Part shown: positions 16,701-46,365 of the stretch, piece after piece
Layout: every line of letters starts with the position of its first letter
Numbering within the stretch: position 1 is the first letter of the stretch
Source: Firmicutes bacterium HGW-Firmicutes-1
GTDB taxonomy: Bacteria > Bacillota > Clostridia > Lachnospirales > Vallitaleaceae
Length of the DNA: 64,000 bases
Assembly (NCBI GenBank): GCA_002841625.1
Contig: PHAG01000006.1
Coordinates: 248,001-312,000, forward strand
Direction: 5' to 3'
The notes under the pieces: model-generated
What the model was told of the DNA's origin: nothing
Database searches by the model: none
Seen by the model: only the letters and a program-made list of their open reading frames with translations
Translations under genes and position numbers: made by a program

Positions 16701-19700
16701 ATCAGAAAATCATCGAGAATTTTGGAATAATATCGAGAATGAGAAAGATTTAATTACAGAGATTCCGAGAGATAGATGGGACTGGAAAGCATATTATGGT
16801 GACCCTATCAATGAAGCCAATAAAACGAATATTAAGTGGGGAGGCTTCATTAGAGATATTGACAAATTTGATCCGTTGTTCTTTGGTATTTCACCACGAG
16901 AAGCCGCATTAATGGATCCGCAACATAGGATATTTATAGAAAATGTATGGAGAGCAATAGAAGATGCAGGATATAAGGCGAGCGATCTAGCAGGAACTAG
17001 AACAGGGGTCTTTATTGGAGCAGGGGCTTGTGATTATAGTTACTTATTAAAAGAGAGTGGAATAGATTTACATGCACAAATAACAACGGGTACATCGTTT
17101 TCAATTATGGCAAATCGTGTATCTTATCAATTGGATTTGCGTGGGCCAAGTGAAATCATTGATACTGCTTGCTCGAGTTCTTTGGTTGCACTACATCGTG
17201 CCGTTGAGGCAATACAAAAAGATGGTTGTGAAATGGCTTTTGCAGGAGGCATTAATGCCTTGCTCAATCCAGAAACCTTCATTACACTTTCAAAGGCTGG
17301 AATGCTTTCAGAAGATGGAAGGTGTAAAACCTTTGATAAACGTGCCAATGGTTATGTCAGAGGTGAAGGTTGCGGTGTTCTGCTTTTGAAGCCTTTAAGT
17401 AAAGCAATTAAAGATCACGATACCATTTATGCGGTAATAAAAGGGTGTGCTGTCAACCACGGAGGGCATGCGAACACCATGACGACACCTAATCCAAATG
17501 CACAAGCAGAGTTAATCGTTAGTGCCTGGGAAGAGTCAAAGATTGATCCTACGACAATAGGATATATTGAAGCCCATGGTACGGGAACTAGCCTAGGAGA
17601 TCCAATTGAAATCAATGGATTAAAGAAAGCATTTGAGCAATTATGTAAAAATTCGGACATTGCAACGCTTGACAGAGCTTATTGTGGAATTGGCTCAGTG
17701 AAAACAAACATTGGACATCTTGAATTCGGTGCGGGTATAGCAGGTGTTATAAAAGTCATACTTGCTATGAAGAACAAAAAGATACCAGCAAGTATTCATT
17801 TTGAGGAACAAAATCCTTATATTAAATTGGAAGAGAGTCCATTTTATATAGTAGATAAAACAATTCAATGGGAGGCTCTTAAAGATGACAATAATAACTT
17901 GGTTCCAAGACGTGGAGGGGTTAGCTCATTTGGCTTTGGCGGTGTAAACGCACATATTGCATTAGAGGAGTATCTAGTTCCAACGGCTACTGTTGCGGAG
18001 GAGTCTATTAAACCACAAATGATTATTCTATCTGCTAAGAGTGAAGAACGCCTTAAAGCATATGCGAAGGATTTAATAGAATATATTGATCAGCAACAAG
18101 TGATGGAGGCACAAGAACCGCAACATAGTACGAATATTTCAGATATTGCTTATACCTTGCAAGTTGGAAGAGAAGAAATGGATGTAAGGATGGCTATTAT
18201 AGCCAGTCATTTATCAGAGCTAAGAGATAAATTAACTTCTTATTATAGAGATGAAGAAAATGCAGATCTCTTTATAGGGAATGTAAAGAATAATAAAGAC
18301 AAAATTAATTTATTAATTACAGGTGAAAAAGGTAAAAATTATATAAAAAGTATTGTAGAGGATGGTGAGTTAAGGCAAATAGCAAAATTGTGGATATCTG
18401 GGATTAAGATAGAATGGTCAAGTCCAGATCAAGAAAATAATAGAAAACGCATATCACTTCCTACATATCCATTTGCAAAAGAAAGCTATTGGGTACCAGA
18501 GAGAGATAAAAGTGAAGGTAATAACAATCAGTGTCAGTTGATCAGTAAGCTACACCCGATGATAGACAGAAACACTTCAACCTTAGAAGAACAGAGATTT
18601 ACAACAGTATTTTCAGGGAAAGAGTTCTTTCTTTCAGATCATATTATTGAAGGAAGTAAGATTCTGCCAGGAGTAACTTATATTGAGATGGCAAGAGCTG
18701 CAAGTGAATTATCTGGAATGAATCATATTCGAAAAATAAAAGATATTGTATGGATTAGACCTATGATAATAGATGAGGTTTCAAGAGAGGTACATATTTA
18801 TTTATACCCAAATCAGGATAATGTCGAATATGAGATTGGTACAATAAATGAGGAAGGTACATATTTATTACATGGTCAAGGTAAAATGCGAATAGGTATA
18901 GAAAACACCTTCAATACCAATGATGAACCTATCAATCTAGAGTCCATTAAACAAAGATGCACAAACCATATCAGCAAAGAAGCATATTACAATAGATACA
19001 TAGAAGCTGGTTATGAGTATGGAAAAAGCCTTCAATCAATGGAAGAATTGTATGTTGGTAAAGGAGAAGCACTGGCACTGCTAATATTCCCAGCGGGAGT
19101 GAATACCCAGCTTCAAGATATCAGACTTCATCCATCTCTAATGGACGGTGCTTTCCAAACAATAGCTGCGTTAGTAGACGAAGGAGATGCGACTGCTTAT
19201 CTACCCTTTGCACTCGGTGAGATTGAGATTATAAGAGACTTTAAAGAAAAATGCTATGCATATACTACTTTAGTATCAGAAAAAATTAATATTAAAAAGT
19301 ATAACATTGACGTCGTAGATGAAGAAGGGATGCTGCTAGTAAGATTTAAGGATTTCTCCTTACGAGGTATCCAAACAGTCGATCAAGTGGCAATAGCAGT
19401 ACAGAGCGAAACTCTTTATTATAGTAGTCAGTGGGAACAAAAAGAATTCATAGATGTAGAACAACAAAAGGTTGAGTTAAGAAGCATTCTTTTGTTTGAT
19501 ACAGAAGAAGGTCTCTATAAAGCAATAAAGGAAACGGATAGAGAAAGTGAAGTAACACTTGTAAAAGTAGGAGCAAGTTATAAGGTAGTTAGTGAAGATG
19601 AATATGAAATAAATCCTTCGAATCACAATGACTATATAAAATTAGTACAAGCTTTGAAAGAAAAGAAGCGCATACCTTCTGTTATACTTCATTTTTGGAG

Positions 19701-22700
19701 TAAAGATAATACGAAGTTTATTGAAGAGAGGAATACGGAGCCTGAACACTTGGAAAAAGAGCTTATGACAAGTGTTTATTCCGTATACCATTTAAGTGGA
19801 TCGTTATTGAAGGAAAAAATAGACACACCAATTCAAATTGTATATGCCTATTCTGTAAATGGACTTAAAGGACATTCACACTATGAAGCTGTCGGAAGTC
19901 TGTTAAAAACCATATGTTTTGAAACCTCTAAAATTGGGTATAAAACGATTGGTTTTAACCTAACGAATGCGGAGGGCGAGTATCCTTTGACTACAGAAAT
20001 AGCGGTAGATATATTGGATATACTGTTATCAGAGCTAAAATCAGAGGATAAGGAGGTCATTTATCAGGAGGGTCACAGATCAGTAAAAGTAATAAGTGCT
20101 ATTGATAATATTGAGAAAAATCAAAGTGAGATACCACTCATAAAAGATAAAGGGGTATACATCATAACAGGAGGCGCAGGAGGTTTAGGTTTCATATTTG
20201 CTGAGCACTTAGCTAAAGTCTATCAAGCAAGATTGGTACTTGTTGGAAGGTCAGACCTTACTAAGGATAAGCAATCTCAAATCGATCTTCTAAAGGGATA
20301 TGGTGCTCAAGTAGCCTATGTTAAAGCAGATATTTCTAAAAAAGAAGATGCAGATGAGCTTATTACTAAAGCTAAAGATGAGTATAAAGAAATAAATGGC
20401 ATCATTCACAGCGCAGGGGTTATTAGAGATTCTTATTTGATTAATAAAACAGAAGAAGAACTTACAGCAGTATTTGCTCCAAAAGTATATGGAACTCAGT
20501 GGTTGGATGAGGCGACGAAAGATGAGCCATTAGATTTTTTTGCTATGTTTTCATCAATAACCTCTGTACTTGGTAATGCAGGTCAAACAGATTATGCCTA
20601 TGCCAATGGTTTTATGGATAGCTATGCAATTTATAGAGAGAAAATGAAGCAGCATAAAAAACGCCAAGGAAAGAGTATATCAATTAATTGGCCATTATGG
20701 CGTGAGGGTGGTATGAAGGTTGATCAGCAGACCGAAATATTGCTTGAAAAGAACTTTGGTTTAAAGCTTTTTGAAACGGAGATAGGAATTGACACCTTTG
20801 AATTAAGCTTATTACAGCCAGTGTCACAGCTTATTGTATTGCAGGGTGATAAAAGAAAGATAAATAATACAATCAAAAGAAATCAAGAAAAAGCTGTTAA
20901 GGAAACAGAAACTATAGAAATTTTGGAAGCTGATGAAAAGAATATCTTAGAGAAGTTACAAGGAGACTTAAAGCAAATTATAGCAGAAATTCTAAAATTA
21001 CAGATAAGTGATATTGATTTAGATGAAGATATGAGCGGCTTTGGGTTTGATTCGATTTCTTTTACTGAATTTAGCAATGCTTTAAATAATAAATATTTAA
21101 TAGATATCATGCCATCTGTTTTTTATGAGCACACAACACTAATTTCGTTGATAAAATATCTACTAGATACTTATAAAGGTATATTAGGTAATTACTTTGG
21201 CGAAAAGGTTATAAGAGTAAGTCATCAAGAGGTATCGAATAAGGTGGAAGAAATACCTGTAATAGAAACCAAAGGCAGAACAAGATTTAACAATTACCCT
21301 GTTTCAAGAGTGATACCACATATAGAACATAGTAAGGAGCCGGTGGCTATTGTTGGATTAAGTTGCGTTATGCCGGGATCAGAAAATTATCAGGAATTTT
21401 GGAATAATATTGAGAATGAAAAAGATTTAATTACAGAAATTCCGAGTGATAGATGGGACTGGAAAGCATACTATGGTGACCCTATCAATGAAGCCAATAA
21501 AACGAATATTAAGTGGGGAGGCTTCATGAAGGACATTGACAAATTTGATCCATTGTTCTTTGGTATTTCACCACGAGAAGCCGCATTAATGGATCCGCAA
21601 CATAGGATATTTATAGAAAATGTATGGAGAGCAGTAGAAGATGCTGGATATAAGGCAAGCGATTTAGCGGGAACGAGAACGGGTGTATTTATAGGGGCAG
21701 GAGCTTGTGAGTATCGTTACTTATTAAAGGAAAGTGGTATAGATCTTCATGCGCAGATATCAACGGGTACAGCATTTTCAATCATGGCAAATCGTATATC
21801 GTACCAATTAGATTTGCGTGGGCCAAGTGAGGTAATTGATACTGCTTGCTCTAGTTCTTTGGTTGCAATACATCGTGCAGTTGAGGCAATACAAAGAGAT
21901 GGTTGTGAAATGGCCTTTGCCGGAGGCATTAATGCCTTATTCAGTCCGGAAAATTTTATAACATTTTCTAAGGCTGGAATGCTCTCGCAAGATGGAAGGT
22001 GTAAGACTTTTGATAAGAGCGCCAATGGTTATGTAAGAGGTGAGGGATGTGGGGTGGTGCTTTTAAAGCCTTTAAGTAAAGCTATTAAAGACCATGATAC
22101 CATTTATGCTGTAATAAAAGGGTGTGCTGTCAACCACGGAGGGCATGCGAACACGATGACGACACCTAATCCAAATGCACAAGCAGAGTTAATCGTTAGT
22201 GCATGGGAAGAGTCAAATATTGATCCTACGACAATAGGATATATTGAAGCCCATGGAACGGGAACTAGCCTAGGAGATCCAATTGAAATCAATGGATTAA
22301 AGAAAGCATTTGAGCAATTATATAAAAACTCGGAAATAACAATGCCAGACAGACCTTATTGTGGAATTGGCTCAGTGAAAACAAACATTGGACATCTTGA
22401 ATTCGGTGCTGGCATAGCAGGTGTTATAAAAATCATACTTGCTATGAAGAACAAAAAGATACCAGCAAGCATTCATTTTGAAGAACAAAATCCTTATATT
22501 AAACTAGAGGACAGCCCTTTTTATATTGTAGACAAAACAATACAATGGGAGGCCTTTAAAGATGATCGTAATAACTGGATTCCTAGACGTGGAGGAGTTA
22601 GTTCATTTGGCTTTGGAGGTGTAAACGCACATCTTGCATTAGAGGAGTATCTAGCTCCAACTGCTGCAATTGTAGAGGAGTCAGCTCAACCACAAATCAT

Positions 22701-25700
22701 CATTTTATCTGCTAAGAGTGAAGACCGCCTTAAGGCATATGCAAAGGATTTAATCGAATTTCTTGATCATCAACTAGTGATTGAGGATCAAGAGCCTCAA
22801 CACTGTGTGAAGGTTTCAGATATTGCTTATACCTTGCAAGTTGGAAGAGAAGAAATGGATGTAAGGATGGCTATTATAGCAAGTCATTTATTAGAACTAA
22901 GAGACAAATTAACTTCTTATTATAGAGATGAAGAAAATGCAGATCTCTTTATAGGTAATGTAAAGAACAATAAAGACAAAATTAATTTGTTAATTACAGG
23001 TGAAAAAGGTAAAAAATATATAAAGAGTGTTGTAGAAGATGGTGAGTTGAGACAAATAGCTGGATTGTGGATATCTGGGGTTAAGATAGAATGGTCAAGT
23101 TCAGACAAAGGAAATCATAGTAAACGTATTGCACTCCCTACATATCCTTTTGCAAGAGAAAGTCATTGGTTTACCGATTTACCAAGTGGAAAAAAATCTA
23201 AAACAGCTATTGTATCTGAAACAAATGATTTGCATCCATTAATAAGTAAAAATACTTCTGATTTTTATGAACAGAAATTCACAACAATATTGGATGAAAA
23301 CCAATTTTATCTTGCAGATCATGTAGTAGCAGGGCAAAAGATGTTGCCTGGTGTTGCTTCTATCGAGATGGCATACATTGCTGGAAAACTCTCTGGGAAA
23401 AGAAATATTTCAAAAATTCAAGATATTATATGGATTAGACCAATTATAGTATTAGAGAAGTTAAAAGAAGTTAATATCAGTCTTTCTACAAAGGGAGATG
23501 TGATTGATTATGCGATCCAATCGATAAATGAGGACAACAGTCGAACGCTATATTCTCAAGGTAAATTACGAATGGATTTAAAGGACATACAACCTATTCA
23601 TACATACATTGATATTGGTGCTATAAAGGAACAATGTCAAGTTTTAATAGATAGTCAACAATGTTACAGTAAGTTTAGGGAAAGCGGATTAGAATACGGT
23701 TCAAGTTTTAGAACCATAAAAGAGATATACAGTGGTGATAATGAAGCACTCACAGCACTTCAATTACCAAGTGATCTTATAGAAGACTTCAATAAATTTG
23801 AGTTACACCCTTCTTTAATGGATGGTGCACTTCAATCAGTAATTGGTATAAAAAATTCAGGGTTAGAGGGAGAGGGTGTACATCTTCCGATTGGCATTGA
23901 AGAAATAGAAATCTTTCATCCATTGAGTATCCAATGCTATATATATGCCAAAACAGTTAAGGATTTTGAAAAAGCAGAAGGCCGTAGTAAAAAGTATACG
24001 ATTGAAATTGTAGACACCAATGGCTTGGTATTGGTTAGAATGAAAGAATTTATGGTAAGGCCGCTTCACAAGACAGTGTCAGAGGAGCAAAACTCATTTA
24101 ACGTAACTAAGTACGATAACACTGATTTATTAAATAAAGTACAAGAGAAATTAAAACGAATTTTATCGGAAGAAATTAATATGCCAATAACAAGAATTGA
24201 TGCATATGAACCATTCGAAAAATACGGCATTGATTCCATAATGATTATGAGCTTGAACGGAGTACTTGAAACCCATTTTGGTAACATATCAAAGACATTG
24301 CTCTTTGAGTATAAGAATCTTAGAGAGCTTGCAGAATATTTTGCTAAAAACCACAGTGAAAAATTTGAAGAAGGTATGGGTAGCACTGAAGAAATGATAC
24401 CAAAAGAGATAAATCCTGTAACAGAGGTTAAAACCAATATACCTTTACGTTCTAATAGTGAGAGGTTTGTTAGGTCAGAACAAATTATGAATAAGTCTGA
24501 AATTGCAGAAGATGATATTGCAATTATTGGAGTAAGTGGTAGATACCCAATGGCAGATACACTTGATGAGTTCTGGGAAAATCTTAAGGTAGGCAAGGAC
24601 TGTATTACGGAAGTTCCTAAAGAAAGATGGAATCACGATGCTTATTATGACGCCGACAAAAATAAAAAAGGCAAAAGTTATAGTAAGTGGGGAGGCTTTA
24701 TTAATGATGTAGACAAGTTTGATCCAATGTTCTTTAATATTTCCCCTAAAGAAGCTGAAATTATGGATCCACAAGAAAGACTTTTTCTTCAAACAGTTTG
24801 GCATACAATAGAGGATGCTGGGTATACAAAGTTACGTCTAGAACAGTATAAGGTTGGGGTATTTGCAGGGGTTATGTATAATCACTATCCAATGTATGCT
24901 GCGGAAGAATCAATGAAGGGTAATGTTATAGCGGTGAATTCGACCTATGCCTCTATTGCTAATAGAGTATCCTATTATTTTAATCTTAATGGACCAAGTA
25001 TTTCATTGGATACTATGTGTTCTTCATCTTTAACAGCTATTCACTTAGCGTGTGAAAGTATAAAAAGAGGTGAATGTGACGCTGCTTTAGCAGGGGGCGT
25101 AAACGTTACGATTCATCCAAATAAATACATTATGTTAAGTCAAGGTAGGTTTGCCTCTAGTGATGGAAGATGCAGGAGCTTTGGTGAAGGGGGAGACGGT
25201 TATGTGCCAGGTGAAGGAGTAGGTACAGTTTTATTAAAACCATTGAAGAAAGCTATACTGGATGGAGACAGAATCTATTCCGTTATTAAAGGAACAGCTA
25301 TGAACCATGGTGGTAAGACAAATGGTTATGCAGTTCCGAATCCAAAGGCTCAAAGTACTTTGATTTCGGAAGCCTTAATAAAGGCAAAAGTGAATCCTAG
25401 AACGATCAGTTATATAGAAGCCCATGGAACAGGAACATCCTTGGGAGATCCTATTGAGATTGCGGGATTACAAAAGGCCTTTGAAGCTTATACACAGGAT
25501 GCACAGTTTTGCTCAATTGGTTCATCAAAATCTAATATTGGTCATCTTGAATCAGCCGCTGGGATAGCTGCCATAACAAAAGTCATTCTACAAATGAAGT
25601 ATAAGACCTTGGTGCCTTCCATTCATTCTGAAAACATGAATCCGAATATTAATTTTGAGACCTCACCATTTTATATTCAGCATGAGTTAAAGGAGTGGAA

Positions 25701-27324
25701 AGCGCCAATTATTGACGGACAAAATTATCCAAGGTGTGCGGGCATTAGTTCGTTTGGTGCGGGTGGATCAAATGCCCATATTATAATGGAGGAATACATA
25801 GATTCAATATCACAGCCGAGGGTTACAGTTCGAGAAAAAGAATTAATACTATTATCAGCAAGAGACGAAGATAGGTTAAAAGAATATGCGTTAAGATTAT
25901 CAACATATCTTGAAAAAATTGAAGCATATGAGAAGCCATCTCTAAGTGGAATTGCATATACGTTGCAAACGGGTAGAGAAGCTATGGAAGAGAGATTAGC
26001 CTTAATTGTATCAAATATAGAAGAGTTGCGTGAAAAATTACTAGGGTTTATCAGAAGCGATAAACATATGGAGGCTGTCTATAGGGGAAGCATTAAAACT
26101 AGAATAAATCATGAAGACCTTTTTGATACAGTGAAACAGGAAAACAATAGAAAACTGTTTGAATTAAAGCAATACGAGAAGCTTGCTCAAGAATGGACGG
26201 TAGGGGAAGCCATTGATTGGAGAACATTATACCGTGATGAGATGAATAAGGTCCTATCACTACCCGTGTACCCATTTGCTAGAGAATATTATTGGATACC
26301 AGGCCAAGGAGAAAATAACTTGAATTCTGATGCTAAACAGCAAACTGCAGCAACCCTACACCACTTAGTAGGTAAGAATACATCAACCCTTAATGAGCAA
26401 TGTTTTGAAACAGTATTTAACGGTAACGAGTTCTTCTTTAAGGACCATGTTGTAGCGGGGCGAAAAATAATGCCAGCAGCAGCATTCATAGAAATGGCTA
26501 GAGCTGCAGGGGATTTATCCGAAAACATGAAGGTTTGTAAAATGAAGGATATGATTTGGGTTAAGCCGATAACGATGGATAATATATCCAAGCTAATACA
26601 AATAAATCTTATACCAGAGATTGGATTCGTAGAATATGAAATAGTTGAAACGCTAGAGAATGACATAAAAACCATTTATTCAAAAGGTAGATTAATTTAT
26701 GGTGAACTGACTTTGGATGAGATGGATGAAGTGTTCTTTGATATTGAATCTATTAAAGGAAGGAGTACCGAGGTTATTAGTAGACAACAATGTTATACCG
26801 CATTTGATGAGATTGATATACAATATGGTAATCGTTTTAGAGTAATACAAGAAATGTATGTTGGCAAAGGTCAAGCATTAGCTAAATTAAAGTTGCAAGA
26901 AAAAGATGATCTTGATGAATTCGTTTTGCATCCTACAATACTTGATGGTATGTTTCAATCCGTGCTAGGTGTTGGGTATGGTCAATCTGCCAAGCAGCTT
27001 TATATACCATTTACTATAGGAGAATTGAGTATTTACGGACCATTATCATATAGAGGTTATAGCTATGCGGTATCTAAGAATAATGGACGATTAGAAAGTG
27101 ATATAAAGGTGTTTGATATTTATCTTTTGGATGAAGCTGGAAAGGTAGTATTAAAAGTTAGTGACTTTTCGGTAAAACCGATGATAAAAAGAGTAAGCCA
27201 TCCAGCGAATAGTATGGAGGGTGTTGAACTTATAGATTTATTAAATAAAGTATACCTTGGAGAAACAGAGGTTGATAGCGTTATCGAGTTCATAGAGGGT
27301 AAGGAGGGTATGGAGAATGCATAA
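13780..27324 (+). CDS. Trans-AT polyketide synthase, fragment 4 (DH4-KR4-ACP4-KS4-DH5-KR5-ACP5-KS5-DH6-ACP6-KS6-DH7)
   Basis: 4514 residues; the 5' end is again a linker break (homology starts at SGGEIDW near 13795), so the listed start is arbitrary. By residue: linker tail 1-45; DH4 54-331 (H87, D255); KR4 342-814 (GGAGGLG near 572, S699/S700, Y713, N717); ACP4 824-901 (S866); KS4 959-1399 (C1131); linker; DH5 1591-1869 (H1621, D1789); KR5 1879-2371, with an 11-residue insert at 2061-2071; ACP5 (S2425); KS5 about 2520-2957 (C2690); linker; DH6 (H3181, D3348); ACP6 directly after DH6 (GIDS, S3486), so no KR; KS6 (C3747, MCSSS); linker; DH7 (H4223, D4389); acidic helical tail from about 4478. 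KS4 and KS5, and DH4 and DH5, are near-duplicates at DNA level. ACP6 and KS6 belong to a different sequence type. The last module is split: DH7 here, its KR in the next protein. It overlaps the next gene by 8 nt, so the two are translationally coupled. Confidence 0.93.
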   Translation: MKRVFSGGEIDWELLYNKNSQRRISLPTYPFAREGYWIPAGNTSVSGYNQQEVLRKLHPMIDRNTSTLEEQKFTTVFSGKEFYLSDHVIAGDKILPGVTYIEMARAASELSGLDHIQKIKDIVWIRPIKIEECSREIQICLYPNQNNVGYEISSINEDGTKLLHGQGKMLIGMENTFYNNEEPINLESIKQRCTNHISKEAYYNRYIEAGYEYGKSLQSMEEIYVGKGEALALLIFPAGVNTQLQDIRLHPSLMDGAFQTIAALVDERDATAYLPFALGEIEIIRNLKEKCYAYTTLVSETFNIKKYNIDVVDEEGMLLLRFKDFSLRGVQMIHQADVAAQSETLYYSCHWEQRALIEVEEKVTLESILLFDQDENLYKVLKETHRERKITLVKVGASYKEVSDDEYEINPANHEDYVKMLKSLEKKKNIPTHILHLWNIQKCEQIDLGAYSVYHLSRALVEQKLNKHLKFVFGYSVEGEKGYSHHEAVGSLLKTVCLETTKIGYKTIGFNTKRTIDILDILLSELKAEDKEIKYQDGQRLVKYIYEIEEIENTEKEHKSLIKHKGVYLITGGAGGLGQIFAEHLAKVYHARLVLVGRSELTKEKQLKIDLLKKYGAEVIYIEADISKKEEVDQLITKAKVEYKEINGIIHSAGVIRDSYLINKSEEEMTAVLDPKVYGTLWLDEATKDEPLDFFVMFSSITAVLGNAGQTDYAYANSFMDSYANYREKLKQQVERQGKSISINWPLWREGGMKVDQQTEILIEKNFGLKLFETEIGIDTFELSLLQSATQFIVLQGDRKKINNAIKKNQEKVIIETETIEILEADEKNILEKLQEDLKQIIAGILKLQISDIDLDEDMSGFGFDSISFTEFSNALNDKYLIDIMPSIFYEHTTIISLIEYLLETYKVKFGNYFGKKVKKVDHQEVLNKVEEIPVIETKSRLRFNNYPVSRVIPHIEHMKEPVAIVGLSCVMPGSENHREFWNNIENEKDLITEIPRDRWDWKAYYGDPINEANKTNIKWGGFIRDIDKFDPLFFGISPREAALMDPQHRIFIENVWRAIEDAGYKASDLAGTRTGVFIGAGACDYSYLLKESGIDLHAQITTGTSFSIMANRVSYQLDLRGPSEIIDTACSSSLVALHRAVEAIQKDGCEMAFAGGINALLNPETFITLSKAGMLSEDGRCKTFDKRANGYVRGEGCGVLLLKPLSKAIKDHDTIYAVIKGCAVNHGGHANTMTTPNPNAQAELIVSAWEESKIDPTTIGYIEAHGTGTSLGDPIEINGLKKAFEQLCKNSDIATLDRAYCGIGSVKTNIGHLEFGAGIAGVIKVILAMKNKKIPASIHFEEQNPYIKLEESPFYIVDKTIQWEALKDDNNNLVPRRGGVSSFGFGGVNAHIALEEYLVPTATVAEESIKPQMIILSAKSEERLKAYAKDLIEYIDQQQVMEAQEPQHSTNISDIAYTLQVGREEMDVRMAIIASHLSELRDKLTSYYRDEENADLFIGNVKNNKDKINLLITGEKGKNYIKSIVEDGELRQIAKLWISGIKIEWSSPDQENNRKRISLPTYPFAKESYWVPERDKSEGNNNQCQLISKLHPMIDRNTSTLEEQRFTTVFSGKEFFLSDHIIEGSKILPGVTYIEMARAASELSGMNHIRKIKDIVWIRPMIIDEVSREVHIYLYPNQDNVEYEIGTINEEGTYLLHGQGKMRIGIENTFNTNDEPINLESIKQRCTNHISKEAYYNRYIEAGYEYGKSLQSMEELYVGKGEALALLIFPAGVNTQLQDIRLHPSLMDGAFQTIAALVDEGDATAYLPFALGEIEIIRDFKEKCYAYTTLVSEKINIKKYNIDVVDEEGMLLVRFKDFSLRGIQTVDQVAIAVQSETLYYSSQWEQKEFIDVEQQKVELRSILLFDTEEGLYKAIKETDRESEVTLVKVGASYKVVSEDEYEINPSNHNDYIKLVQALKEKKRIPSVILHFWSKDNTKFIEERNTEPEHLEKELMTSVYSVYHLSGSLLKEKIDTPIQIVYAYSVNGLKGHSHYEAVGSLLKTICFETSKIGYKTIGFNLTNAEGEYPLTTEIAVDILDILLSELKSEDKEVIYQEGHRSVKVISAIDNIEKNQSEIPLIKDKGVYIITGGAGGLGFIFAEHLAKVYQARLVLVGRSDLTKDKQSQIDLLKGYGAQVAYVKADISKKEDADELITKAKDEYKEINGIIHSAGVIRDSYLINKTEEELTAVFAPKVYGTQWLDEATKDEPLDFFAMFSSITSVLGNAGQTDYAYANGFMDSYAIYREKMKQHKKRQGKSISINWPLWREGGMKVDQQTEILLEKNFGLKLFETEIGIDTFELSLLQPVSQLIVLQGDKRKINNTIKRNQEKAVKETETIEILEADEKNILEKLQGDLKQIIAEILKLQISDIDLDEDMSGFGFDSISFTEFSNALNNKYLIDIMPSVFYEHTTLISLIKYLLDTYKGILGNYFGEKVIRVSHQEVSNKVEEIPVIETKGRTRFNNYPVSRVIPHIEHSKEPVAIVGLSCVMPGSENYQEFWNNIENEKDLITEIPSDRWDWKAYYGDPINEANKTNIKWGGFMKDIDKFDPLFFGISPREAALMDPQHRIFIENVWRAVEDAGYKASDLAGTRTGVFIGAGACEYRYLLKESGIDLHAQISTGTAFSIMANRISYQLDLRGPSEVIDTACSSSLVAIHRAVEAIQRDGCEMAFAGGINALFSPENFITFSKAGMLSQDGRCKTFDKSANGYVRGEGCGVVLLKPLSKAIKDHDTIYAVIKGCAVNHGGHANTMTTPNPNAQAELIVSAWEESNIDPTTIGYIEAHGTGTSLGDPIEINGLKKAFEQLYKNSEITMPDRPYCGIGSVKTNIGHLEFGAGIAGVIKIILAMKNKKIPASIHFEEQNPYIKLEDSPFYIVDKTIQWEAFKDDRNNWIPRRGGVSSFGFGGVNAHLALEEYLAPTAAIVEESAQPQIIILSAKSEDRLKAYAKDLIEFLDHQLVIEDQEPQHCVKVSDIAYTLQVGREEMDVRMAIIASHLLELRDKLTSYYRDEENADLFIGNVKNNKDKINLLITGEKGKKYIKSVVEDGELRQIAGLWISGVKIEWSSSDKGNHSKRIALPTYPFARESHWFTDLPSGKKSKTAIVSETNDLHPLISKNTSDFYEQKFTTILDENQFYLADHVVAGQKMLPGVASIEMAYIAGKLSGKRNISKIQDIIWIRPIIVLEKLKEVNISLSTKGDVIDYAIQSINEDNSRTLYSQGKLRMDLKDIQPIHTYIDIGAIKEQCQVLIDSQQCYSKFRESGLEYGSSFRTIKEIYSGDNEALTALQLPSDLIEDFNKFELHPSLMDGALQSVIGIKNSGLEGEGVHLPIGIEEIEIFHPLSIQCYIYAKTVKDFEKAEGRSKKYTIEIVDTNGLVLVRMKEFMVRPLHKTVSEEQNSFNVTKYDNTDLLNKVQEKLKRILSEEINMPITRIDAYEPFEKYGIDSIMIMSLNGVLETHFGNISKTLLFEYKNLRELAEYFAKNHSEKFEEGMGSTEEMIPKEINPVTEVKTNIPLRSNSERFVRSEQIMNKSEIAEDDIAIIGVSGRYPMADTLDEFWENLKVGKDCITEVPKERWNHDAYYDADKNKKGKSYSKWGGFINDVDKFDPMFFNISPKEAEIMDPQERLFLQTVWHTIEDAGYTKLRLEQYKVGVFAGVMYNHYPMYAAEESMKGNVIAVNSTYASIANRVSYYFNLNGPSISLDTMCSSSLTAIHLACESIKRGECDAALAGGVNVTIHPNKYIMLSQGRFASSDGRCRSFGEGGDGYVPGEGVGTVLLKPLKKAILDGDRIYSVIKGTAMNHGGKTNGYAVPNPKAQSTLISEALIKAKVNPRTISYIEAHGTGTSLGDPIEIAGLQKAFEAYTQDAQFCSIGSSKSNIGHLESAAGIAAITKVILQMKYKTLVPSIHSENMNPNINFETSPFYIQHELKEWKAPIIDGQNYPRCAGISSFGAGGSNAHIIMEEYIDSISQPRVTVREKELILLSARDEDRLKEYALRLSTYLEKIEAYEKPSLSGIAYTLQTGREAMEERLALIVSNIEELREKLLGFIRSDKHMEAVYRGSIKTRINHEDLFDTVKQENNRKLFELKQYEKLAQEWTVGEAIDWRTLYRDEMNKVLSLPVYPFAREYYWIPGQGENNLNSDAKQQTAATLHHLVGKNTSTLNEQCFETVFNGNEFFFKDHVVAGRKIMPAAAFIEMARAAGDLSENMKVCKMKDMIWVKPITMDNISKLIQINLIPEIGFVEYEIVETLENDIKTIYSKGRLIYGELTLDEMDEVFFDIESIKGRSTEVISRQQCYTAFDEIDIQYGNRFRVIQEMYVGKGQALAKLKLQEKDDLDEFVLHPTILDGMFQSVLGVGYGQSAKQLYIPFTIGELSIYGPLSYRGYSYAVSKNNGRLESDIKVFDIYLLDEAGKVVLKVSDFSVKPMIKRVSHPANSMEGVELIDLLNKVYLGETEVDSVIEFIEGKEGMENA
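13785..13800 (+). other. Deletion/frameshift scar in the post-KS3 linker
   Basis: Same position as the in-frame scar at 9432: codons for EGEEG, then about 13 nt, then GEIDWELL in another frame. About 59 nt are missing relative to the KS1 linker. The roughly 300 nt before this scar are nearly identical to those before 9432. Confidence 0.85.
16650..22660 (+). repeat. Tandem near-identical KS-DH-KR-ACP module repeat, period about 4.68 kb
   Basis: The KS4 block (16655-17980) and KS5 block (21335-22650) are nearly identical in DNA, and the active-site Cys codons are 4677 nt apart (17170 and 21847). The flanking DH4/DH5 (for example 14330-14600 and 18930-19200) and KR4/KR5-ACP4/ACP5 segments are also closely matched. 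This indicates recent module duplication or gene conversion. Confidence 0.8.
19954..19992 (+). repeat. Copy 1 of an identical 39-nt repeat; 33 nt of it an in-frame insert (LTNAEGEYPLT)
   Basis: This stretch, starting TTTAACCTAACGAATGCGGA, is identical base for base to 34946-34984. It lies in the structural half of KR5. Aligned to KR4 (GFN-TKRTIDILDIL), KR5 reads GFN-LTNAEGEYPLT-TEIAVDILDIL, so codons 19960-19992 are an exact 11-codon insertion after FN. The insert is more G+C-rich than its surroundings. TTTAAC before it and TTTGAC at its end resemble a short direct repeat. Confidence 0.85.
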
Positions 27325-30300
27325 AGAGACTAGAGATATTATTGAATTAATTAAAGATAAAAAAATAACCCCAGAGGAAGGTTTTAAGCGTATTAAAGCT
27401 AATACAGATCAAATATCTGAGAATCACTATTATCTTGAGCAGTGGCAACAACTAGAAGAAAGCGCAATAGAAAACACGAGGTTATTGAAAGGTAATATAC
27501 TGCTTTTTGATGTGGATCAACAGTTTTGTAATGCGATAAGAGAGTATGTTTATAAGGAAATGGGGAGCAATGACATTAAAATTGTTTTAGTAATGCCTGG
27601 ATCCAGTTTTGGTTATTTAGAAAATGATCTTTATGAAGTAAATATTAAAAATAGTAATGATTATAAAAGCTTGTTGGATGATCTTGAAGGACGCAATGTA
27701 TTTCCAGAAACGATTCTTCATATGTGGTCAAAAGACAATGATTCAACATCCTTTAAATCACGCTTTTATAAAGGGATAGATGCTATATTTTATCTTGCTA
27801 AGGAGCTGGTTATACGTAAGATTAAATCGTACATGTCATTAATGTATTTTCATCAAGGTCATTTAAATGACATGCAACCCCAATATGCTTCAGTGGCAAG
27901 CTTTCTTAGAACCTTGAATATGGAAAATCCATACTTAAAATGCAAATCAATATGTATGGAGGAATCTGTTGATATCCACTCTTTTGTAAAGATTATAGGC
28001 AATGAAATGGCTGTAAATTTAACGGATATAGAGATCTGTTATGACGAAAGGTTAAACAGATATGTTAGAGGCTATAAGCTTTACACACCGACAAATCAAT
28101 CTGTCGTGAAACCGGTGCTAAAGAATGGGGGCACGTATATCATTACCGGTGGCGCTGGAAGCATTGGTTTGATTATTGCTGGATATATTGCCAGCAAGGT
28201 TAAATGCCATATTGCACTCACAGGAAGATCAACGCTATCTCAAGAAAAACAGGATATTCTAAAAAAGCTTGAGGAGAATGGTTCAGAAGTGGTTTATTTT
28301 GAAAGTGATATCACAAGTAAAAAAAGTGTTCAAAAACTAATAGGCGATGTGAAAATAAAATTTGATAAAATTGATGGTATTATACATTCGGCAGGAATCC
28401 TTAGAGATAGCTTTTTATTTATAAAAACAAAAAAGGATTTTGATAAGGTATTGGCACCAAAAATTTACGGTACATTTTGGCTAGATGAAGTGACCAAAGA
28501 TGAAGAATTAGATTTTTTTGTTTTATTTTCATCCGTGTCCGCGACATTAGGAAATGTTGGACAAACAGATTATGCTTATGCTAACAGCTTCATGGATTAT
28601 TATGCGAAAAAAAGAGAGTTAATGGTGAATCAAAAGCAACGATGGGGTAAAAGCATTTCTATAAATTGGCCTTACTGGTCTGATGGAGGAATGACCATAA
28701 ATGAGAAGACCTTGATCTGGTTAAAAGAGAACATGGGTATATTACCTCTAAGCTCGGAAAATGGGATAAAGGCTTTTGAAGACGCTTTAAACAATTCATT
28801 TAATCAATTAATTGTTTTTGAAGGAGATGAAAAGAAGATAAGCCAATTGTTTTCATCCAATAAGCAGCAGTATATTGATGAAAGCCAAGACGCCCTTGTA
28901 AGTAGTACGACAGTTAGCATAACTAAAGAAAACATAGATCAAGAAAATATAGATCAAGAAAACATAAATCAAGAAAACATAAATCAAGAAAACACAAATC
29001 AAGAAAACATAGATTCAGACCATATAGTTCTAGACCATATAGATCCATACGATACAGAAATAGGATTAGACTTGAAAGACAAAGCGGAGTTAGTTGAAAA
29101 AACAAAGAATTTTCTGAAACCGTTAATATCCAAAGAGACTAAGGTGCCTCTATCGAAAATAGATTCAGAGGCAGATTTTGAAAAATTCGGGCTTGATTCT
29201 GTTATGATCATGGGACTAAATAGAGAGCTGGAAAATAATTTTGGAGAGTTATCAAAAACCTTGTTTTATGAAAACCAAACAATCGGCCAGCTTGCTCATT
29301 ACCTAGTACAGAACTATGAAGATAAAGTAGTTGAAAAACTTAGTGGGTCACTAAAACAAGACCAAAGAGATCTGGACGAAGAAAACAAAAACATAGTATC
29401 ACATTCAATTACTTCCTTGAAACGTCAAATGAATACCAAAACATTTGAAAAAAACAAGGTAACCATTCTAGAACAATTACAGAATAAACAAAACAATGAA
29501 TGTATAGAAGACGATATTGCAATTATTGGGTTAAGTGGTAAATATCCGATGGCCTCAACCATAAGCGACTTTTGGGAGAATTTAAAATCAGGAAAAGATT
29601 GTATTACCCAGATTCCAACAACAAGATGGGATTATACTAAATACTTCGATGCTAACAAGAATGCAAAAGGAAAAACTTATAGTAAATGGGGTGGGTTCAT
29701 AGAAGATGTAGATAAGTTTGATCCGTTGTTTTTTAACATCTCTCCAAGAGAAGCATGTTATATTGACCCACAGGAACGTATTTTTTTAGAAACTGCCTGG
29801 CATACCCTAGAAGATGGGGGCTATACGAGAGATAAAATTTCAGAAGAAAATATTGGTGTATTTGTTGGTGCGATGTTTGGACATTATCAACTGTTTGGTG
29901 CTGAGGAATCTATGAGGGGCAATGATATTGGACTAAGCTCATCATTTGCTTCCATTGCAAATCGTGTGTCCTATATCTTAAATCTTAAAGGCCCTAGTAT
30001 TGCATTAGATACAATGTGCTCCTCTTCTTTAACAGCAATTCATATTGCAAAAGAAAGTATCCTTAGAGGCGAATGTGATGTTGCAATAGCTGGGGGCGTT
30101 AATGTTACAATTCATCCTAATAAATATATACTTCTTAGCCAAAGTAATTTTCCGTCAACAGATGGTAAGTGTAGAAGTTTTGGCGACGGAGGAGATGGTT
30201 ACGTTCCTGGAGAAGGAACGGGTGCAGTTCTATTAAAACCACTTAAGAAGGCCATAGCAGATGGTGATCATATATATGGGGTAATTAAGGGGAGTGCATT

Positions 30301-33300
30301 AAATCATGGAGGAAAGACGAGCGGGTACTCGGTGCCAAATCCCAACGCTCAAGCCTCTTTGATTTCTAAAGCACTATTGAAAGCAGGTATTGAGCCACGA
30401 ACAATTAGTTATATTGAAGCACATGGAACGGGTACTGCACTTGGAGATCCAATAGAAATAACGGGCTTAGTTCATGCGTTTCAAAAAAGCACAAAAGACA
30501 AACAGTTTTGTGCTATTGGATCTGTTAAATCTAATATTGGTCATTGCGAATCTGCTGCAGGTATAGCAGGACTAACGAAGGTACTCCTTCAAATGCAATA
30601 TAAGCAGCTAGTACCATCGATACACTCGGCAAAGTTAAATGCAAATATTAAATTTGAGAATACACCCTTTACCGTTCAACAAAGGTTAGAGGAATGGAAG
30701 CAGCCTGACATCGAGGGTAAAAAATATCTTAGACGTGCTGGTATCAGCTCCTTTGGAGCAGGAGGATCAAATGCTCATATTTTAGTTGAGGAATATATTT
30801 ACAATGAATTAGAGTATTATGAAAATAGAGAGCAATTAATCGTTCTTTCTGCAAGAAATGAAGAGCGCCTTTTAGCATATTCACAAGAATTAATCCGTTA
30901 TTTAATGGAGTCATTTGTTGAGCAACAAAAATATGGAAGAACTTCCCTAGAACAAATAGCCTATACCCTTCAGGTAGGTCGAGAAGCAATGACTGAACGT
31001 CTAGGGATAATCGCATCAAGCATAGAAGAATTGATAGAAAAACTAGAACAATATTTACTCAATAATTTGGAAACAGATAACCTATACTTGGGAACCGTAA
31101 AAGAAAAGAGTGGTATGTCTGATCAACTTGATGATGATGATGAGGGACAGGCATTTGTTTTCGCATTGATTAAAAACAAAAAACTAAACAAGCTTGCTAA
31201 ACTGTGGGTCACAGGTGTAGAAGTGGACTGGAAGACACTATATAACAATACTATTAGAAGGGTTTCGCTACCGACATATCCTTTTGCAAAAGTGCGTTAT
31301 TGGGTACCAGAACAAGAAGGGGGAGCAGTAGAGGCATTCCATAATACGCAAAACATTATATCAAAGCTTCACCCAATGATAGATCAGAATATATCAACAA
31401 TTGATGAACAGATGTTTAGTACGACATTTAGTGGGGAGGAATTCTTTCTTAAAGATCATGTGATAGAAGGTAAAATGATTTTGCCAGGTGTCGCATATAT
31501 AGAAATGGCGAGGGCAGCAGGCGAATTATCAGGTGTATTGGGAATTACTAAGATAAAAGATATACTTTGGATAAGACCCATTACGATACATGGCCCGTTG
31601 GTTGAAGTGCATATTGGTCTTTATCCAAAAGAGGATTCCCTTGAATATGAAATTAGCACAAGAAATAATGATCAAATCATTGTTCATAGTCAAGGCAGGT
31701 TATTATTTGAGGATGAAAACTTCTTGGATTTAAAGGAAGAAAAGGTGGACATTGAGACCATTATTCAAAGATGTACTGAAACCATAAGCAGTGAAGTTCT
31801 GTATCAGCGATTAGGAGAAGCCGGCTTTACTTATGGAAAACATTTTCAGCCAATAACAAAAATAGTTGTTGGAGAAGGAGAAGCATTAGCGTATCTTCAA
31901 CTATCTAATAATGGCATCGACACATTAGAGGAGTTTAAATTACACCCATCATTAATGGATGGTGCACTGCAGTCTGTTGCAGGCCTTAGTAAAGACGAAT
32001 ACTTACCATTTGCACTCGGTGAGGTGGACATTCTCAGAGAATTAAAGGAAAAATGCTATGCTCATGTATGCCTTACATTAGATACTCCCAGTATAAAAAA
32101 ATATTGTATCAATCTATTAGATGAAGAGGGAGAGGTACTGGTCAGGTTAAAGGATTTCTCCTTACGAGCATTTAAACCAAAAACAATCCAAGCTCAAAAA
32201 GCAACACACATAAGCCCTAATACACAAATCGAAACAATAAAGGTAGAAAATCAAGAACTATCAAATAGTCTGCAAAAAGATATTGTACATTTTATAGCCA
32301 ATATAGTAATGATGAAAGAGATTGATATAGATATAAACAAAGATATGAGTCGATTTGGATTTGATTCTATATCGTTTACTGAGCTAAGCAATAAATTTAA
32401 TGAGAAGTATAAAATGCATATTATGCCCTCTCTATTTTACGAGCATGAAACCATTTTATCTTTAATTAAATACCTTTTAAAGGAATACAAGGAACTTTTA
32501 TATCAATATTACAGTGACAGTCTTAACGAAGACCACTATAAATCCAAGATTCCATTAGTTACTGAAGATTCTGCAGAAGATTCGGTGGAACAAATTAGGT
32601 CAAGGTATAGAGCCTTGCCATATATTGCTCAAACCTCCAATTTAATAGGAAGACTTAATGAGCCCATTGCAATTATAGGTTTAAGCGGTGTTATGCCAGG
32701 CTCAGATACCCTCGAAGAATATTGGAACAATATTGAAGCTGGGAAAGACCTCATCACTGAAATACCTGAAGATCGGTGGGATTGGAGAGCTTATTATGGT
32801 GATCCTATGAAAGAACCCAACAAAACAAATGTTAAATGGGGAGGCTTCATGAAGGAAGTGGATAAGTTTGACTCCCGGTTTTTTGAAATATCACCTAGAG
32901 AAGCAGAGTTGATGGATCCTCAACAGAGAATATTTCTTCAAACGGTATGGAAAGCAATAGAAGATGCAGGATATAGTCCAAAAGAAATATCAGGAACGAA
33001 AACAGGTGTATTTGTTGGTGTAGGAACTTCTGATTATGGTGATCTTCTTAAAGAAAATAACATAGAAATAAAGGCTCAAATTACAACGGGTCTATCCAAT
33101 TGTATTATTGCAAACAGAATCTCATATTTATTAAATTTTCATGGTCCAAGTGAGCCTATAGATACGGCGTGTTCTAGTTCATTAGTGGCTGTTCATCGGG
33201 CAGTGGAAGCAATACAATTAGGAAACTGTGAAATGGCTATTGCTGGAGGTGTGAGTGTTATAGCAAGTCCTTCTCCTTATATAGCCCTAAGTAAAGCAGC

Positions 33301-36300
33301 TATGATTTGTGAGGATGGTAGATGTAAAACCTTTGATAAGCATGCAAATGGGTATGTTAGAGGAGAAGGTTCGGGTGCCATATTATTAAAACCATTAAGT
33401 AAAGCAATTGACGATCATGATCACATTTATGCTGTTATTAAGGGAAGTGATGTGAATCATGGAGGCCATGTTAATTCTATGACAACACCAAATCCAAATG
33501 CACAAGCAGAGGTTATTGTAAAGGCGTGGAAGAAGTCGGGAATAGATCCTTCTACAATAGGATACATAGAAGCCCATGGTTCAGGAACAAGTTTGGGGGA
33601 TCCAATTGAGATTAATGGATTAAAAAAAGCATTTTCACAGCTATATTTGGAAAGGGGTAAGACAGCACAAGGGAAGCCTTATTGTGGTATTGGTTCTGTA
33701 AAAACGAATGTAGGACATCTTGAAACTGCTGCTGGAATAGCGGGTCTATTAAAAGTTGTTCTTGCTATGAAAAATAAAAAGATACCTCCTACCATTCATT
33801 TTAATGAATTAAACCCTTATATAGAGTTAGGGGGTAGTCCTTTCTATATCGCAGAGGATTTAAAGGTGTGGGAAAAAATCGGGAATGAGCCTAGAAGAGC
33901 AGGCGTCAGTTCCTTTGGATTTGGTGGAACCAATGCCCATGTAGTACTTGAAGAATACGAGATGCCACAATATAAATTACAGGAAGAAAATCAAAAACAG
34001 ATCATTATTCTTTCAGCAAAAAACAAAAACAAACTTCAAGAATATGCGAGTGAAATGATAAGATATTTGGATACAATTTGTAAGGAAGTTCATAACCTGC
34101 CCTATGATGGACAATTAATTCAGCTGATAGAGAGTGACTTAATAAAACTAGCAGCAGAAATAATGAATGTATCACAAGAAGAAATCTCAATTCATGAAAG
34201 TTTAGATGTATATGGATTTGATCCTGTTAGATTAATTGAATTTAGAAAAGATATTGATGACAAATTTGGGATGGAAAACACAATCCTATTGACTAGGCAG
34301 TATTTATCTATCAAAGAGATTGCTCTAATAATTTATAATCAGTTTCAAGAAGGTTTTTTGGATTATTATCGTGATAAAATTGTGGACAATAGGAATGCGA
34401 TAAAGGAGAATATTAGTTTAAGAGACATTGCCTTTACGCTTCAGGTAGGTAGAGAAGAAATGTCTGAACGCCTTGCAGTTGTAGTTTCTGATAAAACGGA
34501 TTTAAAAGAAAAATTATGCATGTTCGTAGGAGAACGGGGAGATGCTGAAAAGTTATACTTAGATACAGCTAGAGATAGCAAAAATAAAATGACTTTTATT
34601 ATGGACGGTGAAGAAGGACGGGAATTTTTATATAGGTTAATCAAAGAGAAAAAAATTGAGAAAATAGCACAGCTTTGGGTGAGTGGTACAGCAATAGATT
34701 GGAAGCTTTTATATGAAAACAGATTACCAAGACGTTTGTCACTTCCGACGTATCCATTTGCAAGAGATCGATATTGGTTACCTGAACAAAAAGAAAAGCC
34801 TAAAGTAAAAAATATAGTTGAAAGTAAGGCTGTGAAGGATGATGTTTTATACTATACGAGTAGTTGGGAAAACTGTGAATTAGATGAGCATTTGGATAAC
34901 AAATTACCTATTAGCTTACTTGTGTTCGATTCAGGAAAGGGTATATTTAACCTAACGAATGCGGAGGGCGAGTATCCTTTGACTGCTTTGAAAGGGCATG
35001 AAAAAGAAGCATTCAATGAAGTGATTTTAGTACATAGGGGAGAGACTTTTAAAGAATTAAGTAAATGTGAATATGAAGTGAATCCTTTAAAGAAAGAAGA
35101 CTATGTAAAATTATTCGAAATATTAAAGGAAAAAAATCAAGTACCGACGCACCTTCTATATTTATGGAATTATTTAGAGGAGATAACAGTTGAAGATATT
35201 CACCTGAATGAAGCTATAGGGCACCAACTAGAAACGAGTGCTTATTCATTGCTTCATTTATGTCATGGCTTAATAGAGAAAAAATGGGAAAAGAACATTA
35301 AAATTATCTACGCTTATAATTCAACCATGAGTGAAAACATATCTCAATATGAAGCTGTAAGTGGTTTGCTAAAAACAGTATGTCTAGAAAATGCAAGGAT
35401 ATCCTATAAAACAATAATGCTTGATATGGACCCTAAGAATATAGAAGATTTAAGAACCTTGCTTATAGAAGAGCTTATGGATGAAAGTGCTGAGGTGATG
35501 CATCAAGATGGACGAAGGTCAGTTAAAATCTTGATTGAAAAAAATGTTACATTAAATAAAGGTGAATATGAGGATAAAAAATCCCTATTAAGGGACAGAG
35601 GCGTATATATCATTACTGGAGGTGCGGGTGGTTTAGGGTTGATTTTTGCTGAATACTTAGCCCGGAATTATAGAGCAAGGCTTGTGCTGACAGGTAGATC
35701 AGAACTTGAAATAAGTAAACAAGTTAAGCTAGAGTCATTTAAGAAGTACGGAGCAGAGGTCATCTATGTTAGGACAGACGTATCTAAACAAGAGGAAGTT
35801 GAAAACCTTATAGACGAGGCCAAAAGAAATTTTACCCAAATCAACGGTATTATTCATAGTGCAGGTGTCATAAGAGATGCATACCTCATCAAAAAAACAG
35901 ACAAAGAGATGAAAGAAGTACTTTTGCCAAAAGTATATGGGACAGTATTGCTAGATGAGATTACAAAAAATGATAACCTAGACTTTTTCGTACTATTTTC
36001 ATCCATAGCAGCTGTTTTTGGGAATCCTGGACAGGGAGATTATGCTTATGCCAATGGTTTTTTGGACAGTTTTTCACATAAAAGAGCGGATATGGTAAAG
36101 AAGAAGGAACGTTATGGCAAGTCTATTTCTGTTAACTGGCCTTTGTGGCAACATGGTAATATGCAAGTAGATCAACAGATTGAGCAGATGATGGAAAACA
36201 GTCTGGGAATTAGATTGCTTCAGACTCATGTTGGCATTGATGCTTTTGAATTTAGCCTTACCCAGGAAAGTAATCAGTTGATGGTGCTTCAAGGGAACAA

Positions 36301-46283: not shown

Positions 46284-46365
46284 AGAACGCGAAGGTTTTG
46301 TATCATTGACATTAAATCATGAAAGAAAGATACCATTCTATTTATCATAATCTAAGGAGAAAAAC

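Follow-up and report, generated by a model that had tools for sequence, protein, structure and literature searches.

The stretch of DNA described here (hereafter the window) spans 64,000 nucleotides of Firmicutes bacterium HGW-Firmicutes-1 (contig PHAG01000006.1, positions 248,001–312,000), and carries a modular polyketide synthase (PKS). Within the window a 39-nt sequence, TTTAACCTAACGAATGCGGAGGGCGAGTATCCTTTGACT, has two exact matches, at 19954–19992 and 34946–34984, where no chance match to such a repeat is expected with up to three mismatches. Copy 1 is located in the ketoreductase (KR) domain KR5 of the open reading frame (ORF) 13780–27324 (4514 aa), and copy 2 in KR8 of ORF 27317–38695 (3792 aa), all on the forward strand. 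Each consists of the hexamer TTTAAC, which supplies Phe-Asn codons (19954–19959 and 34946–34951), and of 33 nt identical between the two (19960–19992 and 34952–34984). Each copy keeps the reading frame of its ORF (codon phase 0) and translates to FNLTNAEGEYPLT, with LTNAEGEYPLT as the inserted peptide.

Insert-free paralogues of both sites are present in the same PKS. KR4 (15283–15342, forward strand, junction between 15312 and 15313) reads GGCTTCAAT directly followed by ACA, whereas KR5 reads GGTTTTAAC, the 33 nt and ACA; likewise KR10 (42687–42752, forward strand, junction between 42722 and 42723) reads TTATTTAAC directly followed by TTA, whereas KR8 reads ATATTTAAC, the 33 nt and GCT. TTTAAC is also found at the insert-free KR10 site. 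In a protein alignment of seven KRs, the 11 extra residues are seen in KR5 and KR8 only, and at differing positions. The original prediction had described an identical 39-nt sequence at these two places, an exact 11-codon in-frame gain after TTTAAC at different sites of the two KRs, and a G+C content above the local level (46% for the 39 nt, 35% for the window); all of this is borne out.

The same prediction saw the repeat at two sites, and here it has to be corrected: a third short copy, TTTAAC plus 31 nt (CTAAAGAACGCGAAGGTTTTGTATCATTGAC), lies at 46274–46310 on the forward strand, and variant copies are found genome-wide. The CTAA of this third copy supplies the TAA stop of the last PKS ORF (38646–46283, forward strand, 2545 aa), and the C-terminus of that protein probably differed before the insertion. 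I consider it likely that the 33-nt insert belongs to a small mobile repeat of this genus, non-coding and non-autonomous, of which it is a copy lacking the core; mobilisation in trans as single-stranded DNA (ssDNA) is the most probable mechanism. Most of the weight of this explanation rests on the ends, the structure, the junctions of the short forms, the presence or absence of copies at orthologous loci and the strand preference, as described below.

A dispersed repeat family with fixed ends

Copy counts were drawn from pattern, covariance-model and sampled-locus searches of this genome (G000, a 3.95-Mb draft in 33 contigs) and of the metagenome-assembled genome (MAG) HGW-Firmicutes-7 (G001), the sole other congeneric genome available. 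Allowing three mismatches, the 27-nt core of the 39-mer has no further match in G000, and 16 dispersed matches on both strands in G001, where a reversed-pattern control gave none. The surroundings of these matches reveal a long form, consisting of TTTAAC followed by CTAACGAAGGAAGT, two hairpins and GCAAGCAAAGCTTGCGTTAGGTTACGAGCTCGTAGCGAATGCGGAGGGCGAGTATCCTTTGAC. The 33-nt form of the window corresponds to the first few bases of this long element joined to its last ∼25, at a common CGAA. Copies 1 and 2 are of the short, terminal-only type A1, and the third copy of the short type A2.

G000 itself is dominated by another type (type B), in which TTTAAC is followed by CGAATGGAA and the element ends in CATTCGGTTACGAAACCGTAGCGAATGCGGAGGTTTTGTAACATTGAC, with 58 matches for the 3′ end. 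It occurs there in long (∼141 nt), medium and short sizes, the short form being TTTAAC followed by CGAATGCGGAGGTTTTGTAACATTGAC (27 nt, its ends meeting at CGAATG), or a 32-nt form with GAAT or AACCG at the junction. Full copies of the family are ∼141–145 nt long and non-coding, while copy sizes overall range from 27 to 174 nt. A covariance model has 71 matches in G000 and 55 in G001, a few of these being a second, opposite-strand match to one palindromic copy; the 20 further genomes searched from the same bacterial family gave none. A looser pattern searched against the genome contig collection matched only MAG HGW-Firmicutes-7; it had no match among viral contigs, nor was one found in plasmid and phage collections, and an exact 21-mer scan of the genome and viral contig collections returned nothing.

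In 65 copies the only conserved 5′ flank is TTTAAC, and the element begins directly 3′ of it. Full copies end in TTGAC(T), beyond which the flank is random with a slight T excess. No target duplication is seen, the flanks being random past both ends. The 3′ end can be placed to within one base, and it is the PKS reading frame that sets the length at 33 nt in the PKS sites.

Several orthologous loci carry the element in one species and lack it in the other (L013/L172, L012/L150, L150/L012 and L070/L150), and one locus is common to both, with a type B element in G000 using the TTTAAC that belongs to a decayed type A copy. Syntenic DNA of the two genomes is ∼80% identical, and because intergenic DNA has diverged by ∼20%, base-precise empty sites between species are mostly unobtainable; the two paralogous KR sites are empty sites of this precision. 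Several copies are arranged head to tail, the second beginning right after the TTTGAC-like end of the first, as expected if such a 3′ end can serve as a TTTRAC target. Taken together, the dispersed copies, the presence/absence differences and the head-to-tail copies show a mobile repeat rather than a one-off duplication. The proposal of an element, mobile or copied, by which a tolerated peptide is added is thus supported (71 and 55 family matches, differing at orthologous loci), and the expectation of dispersed copies and empty sites held at the level of the family, with 16 close copies in G001 and 58 variant ends in G000. Head-to-tail arrangement is also seen at L011 (G001:C23:50925–51350), where three copies each begin at the TTTGC-type 3′ end of the preceding one.

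These observations bear on two rival explanations. The first involves no mobile element, the 39 nt having passed from one PKS site to the other in a single copying event at TTTAAC, either a template switch or gene conversion; this would fit the fact that the only two exact copies in the genome are identical and lie in one cluster, in a PKS rich in long exact repeats. However, both copies have insert-free paralogues, and the sequence together with TTTAAC recurs dispersed in the sister genome and as variants throughout G000. As the source of the sequence itself, local copying is mostly refuted, and as a full account it is very improbable, although a copy event could be the cause of the identity between the two window copies. 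The second explanation, a misassembly, chance or an ancestral KR loop, can draw on the draft state of the genome, but is contradicted by the absence of expected chance matches, by the presence of the element in an independent assembly of another species, and by the other aligned KRs, which have no such loop. The insert-free paralogues and the dispersed copies rule out both a unique artefact and an ancestral loop, and the chance of either is negligible.

Folded structure and candidate route of mobilisation

Long copies of types A and B (19 in total) can be aligned and have a common fold: a closing stem surrounds three hairpins in a cloverleaf-like four-way junction, followed by a 3′ hairpin and a short, single-stranded tail ending in TTGAC. 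The closing stem extends with its 5′ arm into the target (TAAC), the partner of this arm being CRTTAGGTT or CATTCGGTT. In the consensus structure 92.9% of cells are paired, with a covariation of 0.199, against 0.115 for shuffled and at most 0.045 for slid partners. Folded as ssDNA, long copies are far more stable than shuffles (z of −12.6 and −7.8). The earlier description of the sequence as not palindromic is correct for the 33-nt form, and fails for its parent element, which is strongly palindromic internally.

Variants of the stem are found in further lineages. At L077 (G000:C1 near 213200) pairing is preserved by AACCAGCTG/CAGCTGGTT, and tandem partial copies of this CCAGCTG/CAGCTGG stem variant directly follow the stop of a gene. 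L216 (G000:C9:198200–199500) is a tandem array of ∼3 copies of another lineage, with a compensating closing stem AACCCAAT/ATTGGGTT. The CCTAAC...GTTAGG pairing resembles the R boxes of integron attC sites, an identity that is ruled out by the same stem reading CAGCTG/CAGCTGG and CGAATG/CATTCGG in other lineages.

Such a structure could also mean that the repeat is primarily a structured RNA, akin to a 3′-UTR or terminator and selected for function, whose spread was RNA-mediated or due to host recombination. The strong covarying structure agrees with this, as do the mostly intergenic location of the copies, codirectional with genes, and the 26 copies in which the TAA of the target is the stop codon of the upstream ORF. 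The latter position, however, follows from the target itself, which contains TAA and so places many copies after stop codons. Moreover, a large class of copies lacks both the core and the structure (31 of the 84 whose 5′ end can be recognised), the sister species differ in which orthologous loci carry the element, and Rfam returns no gathering-level match over the repeat and none to the whole repeat at E≤1. The one sub-threshold match, to ohsC (31.2 bits for a cut-off of 50, E of 0.81), covers hairpins in L009 and is at chance level. I regard a primarily RNA-based explanation as improbable.

Copies are strongly oriented, with 51 of 55 on the G-rich strand in G000 and 52 of 66 in G001. Leaving aside the targets of the element itself, intergenic TTTAAC shows no excess on that strand, and target frequency therefore fails to explain the bias. 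A fixed 5′ target, the lack of duplication, a hairpin with an adjacent GTTA near a target-like 3′ end and this strand preference together match single-strand transposition of the IS200/IS605 kind. A HUH/Y1 transposase supplied in trans may thus mobilise the repeat as ssDNA at the replication fork, in the way of IS200/IS605 ends and the palindrome-associated transposable elements (PATEs) of Haloquadratum walsbyi, with TTTAAC as the putative 5′ cleavage and target sequence, and TTGAC as the 3′ cleavage sequence. Short forms would be made by repeat-mediated deletion, and would at least partly move as such. The involvement of a HUH enzyme in trans is, in my view, an evenly balanced proposition.

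A number of observations weigh against this mechanism. No transposase carrying the repeat ends was found in G000 or G001, and TnpB (PF07282) is absent from both, which also rules out that the repeat is a TnpB omega-RNA or RE. The sole intact Y1 proteins are RAYT-like, of 250–267 aa (L035 2721–3479, corresponding to G000:C6:161720–162475; L033 2833–3627; L034 2562–3329), and the repeat is not in their flanks; relatives of these at ∼40% identity are present in family members without the repeat. Orientation is confounded with gene direction, nearly all copies having at least one codirectional neighbour. The covariation mostly separates two lineages, and hence reflects few independent events. Finally, the short forms have no recognisable structure and fold no better than shuffles, which counts against their moving as such.

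Comparison with known mobile repeats

By the way it appears to work, the repeat is nearest to PATEs, sharing the features of these that were compared, save for ends in common with an IS605-type transposon. It is likewise non-coding and, at 27–174 nt, too short for a transposase gene, and has neither target duplication nor terminal inverted repeats, with a conserved terminal oligonucleotide that acts as target. Near-terminal palindromes (hairpin 1 and the 3′ hairpin) are present in the long forms and absent from the short ones. In PATEs, repeat-mediated core deletion gives rise to terminal-only copies, those of 52 bp being suspected to be mobile (PMC3119063), and a similar process may apply to the present repeat, with terminal-only copies that may themselves move. 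In contrast, this repeat belongs to Bacillota, no related IS605-type transposon was found in the two congeneric genomes searched, it folds into a cloverleaf where PATEs have two similar end hairpins, its terminal-only forms are smaller (27–33 nt), and it has inserted in frame in a PKS.

Likeness to IS200/IS605 elements (PMC6006769) extends to insertion 3′ of a short fixed sequence without duplication, to a 3′ end resembling the target (TTTGAC for TTTAAC), and to a hairpin near that end, immediately preceded on its 5′ side by a GTTA that, in the predicted fold, is able to pair with the TAAC of the target. The strand bias is as for insertion into the lagging-strand template, here confounded with gene direction. 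However, the repeat contains neither tnpA nor tnpB, and no canonical guide directly precedes the hairpin of its left end. Being non-coding and encoding no Y1 HUH transposase (tnpA), it is not a member of this family. It is not a classical miniature inverted-repeat transposable element either, for want of terminal inverted repeats and target duplication.

REP sequences and their RAYT transposases (PMC6006769, PMC3733652) offer another parallel: the repeat is dispersed, intergenic and non-autonomous, has an invariant GTAG, and G000 and G001 each carry one or two RAYT-like genes. It differs in being longer, with fixed ends, and in that GTAG, instead of marking the foot of a REP-type hairpin, lies within the 3′ hairpin, with no REP-type palindrome after it. 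The RAYT flanks at L033, L034 and L035 lack the repeat; what they carry are CCTGTCCCC/GGGACAGG-type repeats (CCGTCCC in L034), distinct from the element described here. With other repeats flanking the RAYT genes, and RAYT relatives in repeat-free genomes, a RAYT/REP assignment is ruled out.

The original prediction had also drawn a parallel to Rickettsia palindromic elements (RPEs), which are ∼150 bp long and lie largely in genes, with a conserved peptide (PMC10969869). Compared by description, not by sequence, the parallel stands insofar as an in-frame repeat adds a tolerated peptide to protein-coding genes. It does not extend to membership: the coding copies here have 33 nt, genes are extended by no more than 2 of the 55 sampled copies, 50 being intergenic, and in the searches run the repeat is confined to one genus of another phylum, Bacillota.

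A further set of small dispersed repeats, in cyanobacteria, was reportedly described by Elhai et al. in 2008; set beside the present repeat by title alone, these too are very small mobile repeated elements. In line with the earlier statement that no named element with this sequence is known, a literature search of limited reach found no published description of the family, which is previously unnamed.

Short forms, reading frame and origin of the PKS cluster

The short forms (27–33 nt) contain both ends only, joined at direct repeats of 4–6 nt (CGAA in type A, the three named above in type B), from which it follows that core deletion occurs repeatedly. The short PKS forms might thus not be mobile at all, each site having first received a long element, which deletion at CGAA then reduced to the same 33 nt. 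In favour of this, all short-class junctions are at short direct repeats, and such core deletions are documented for Haloquadratum PATEs (PMC3119063). Yet long copies, where translated, carry stops in target-compatible frames, so that each PKS would have passed through a broken state, and two gene-breaking insertions plus two identical collapses would be needed. In addition, several type A2 short copies have in common a derived ACGC variant that is seen in none of the 15 type A long copies. I therefore view collapse in place as rather unlikely. Movement of the short forms themselves is a tentative proposal: terminal-only forms of 27–33 nt may have transposed in trans, and may, as ready-made in-frame peptides, diversify modular enzymes, with their type recording the source genome of the cluster. 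If true, they would be among the smallest mobile DNA elements known. This raises the question of whether a hairpin-less 30-nt DNA can move, and by which enzyme, where the only detected Y1-family gene is RAYT-like.

The reading frame is explained by the insert itself. The type A1 short form is open in sense frame 0 only, and among the type A forms the 33-nt one alone combines a sense frame without stops with a length divisible by three. A sense-orientation copy that survives in a gene must therefore read FN-LTNAEGEYPLT, and the identical in-frame peptides at two sites are no coincidence. The 27-nt type B short form is likewise open and a multiple of three, although no sampled type B copy extends a long ORF. 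Translated long copies (one per type) have stops in frame 0, and in the other frames too, type A frame 1 excepted (an early TAA). Of the short copies examined, only PKS copies 1 and 2 sit within a long ORF that continues on both sides. The anticipated in-frame insertions are thus real and, at 2 of 55, the exception for this family, whose sampled copies are otherwise mostly intergenic.

In a structural model of KR5 (mean pLDDT, the predicted local distance difference test, of 77.6), the insert spans residues 161–171, between a strand (152–160) and a helix (172–185), with a pLDDT of ∼54. In KR5, the only domain modelled, it probably forms a flexible, extended loop within the structural subdomain. 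The two PKS insertions may have survived by virtue of a stop-free insert, a multiple of three in length, landing in such a loop; the third ended the last PKS gene. The PKS offers a clear case of a non-coding selfish repeat turning into protein sequence: the 33-nt product of core deletion has no stop, and is carried by a megasynthase at two different places.

The type of the copies also bears on where the cluster came from. Types A1 and A2 account for all three copies in the window and for 33 of the 37 typed copies in G001, whereas the 49 typed copies elsewhere in G000 are all of type B (3:0 versus 0:49, Fisher p of 4.5e-5). Two decayed type A-like pieces are present in G000 (L078 and the L144 locus). 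G001 has no orthologue of the PKS, the best match being 46% identical. As the window copies are all of the sister genome's type, the PKS cluster was probably acquired; the simplest reading of these sequences is that it received its elements in a type A genome, like that of the sister species, before its acquisition by G000. Repeat types may thus serve as a marker for horizontal transfer of the PKS cluster.

Long exact repeats, of up to 99 nt, are common among the PKS modules (window 1–46283), for example at 9336/13694, 7032/11402 and 6779/11149, and are evidence of recent module duplication or conversion.

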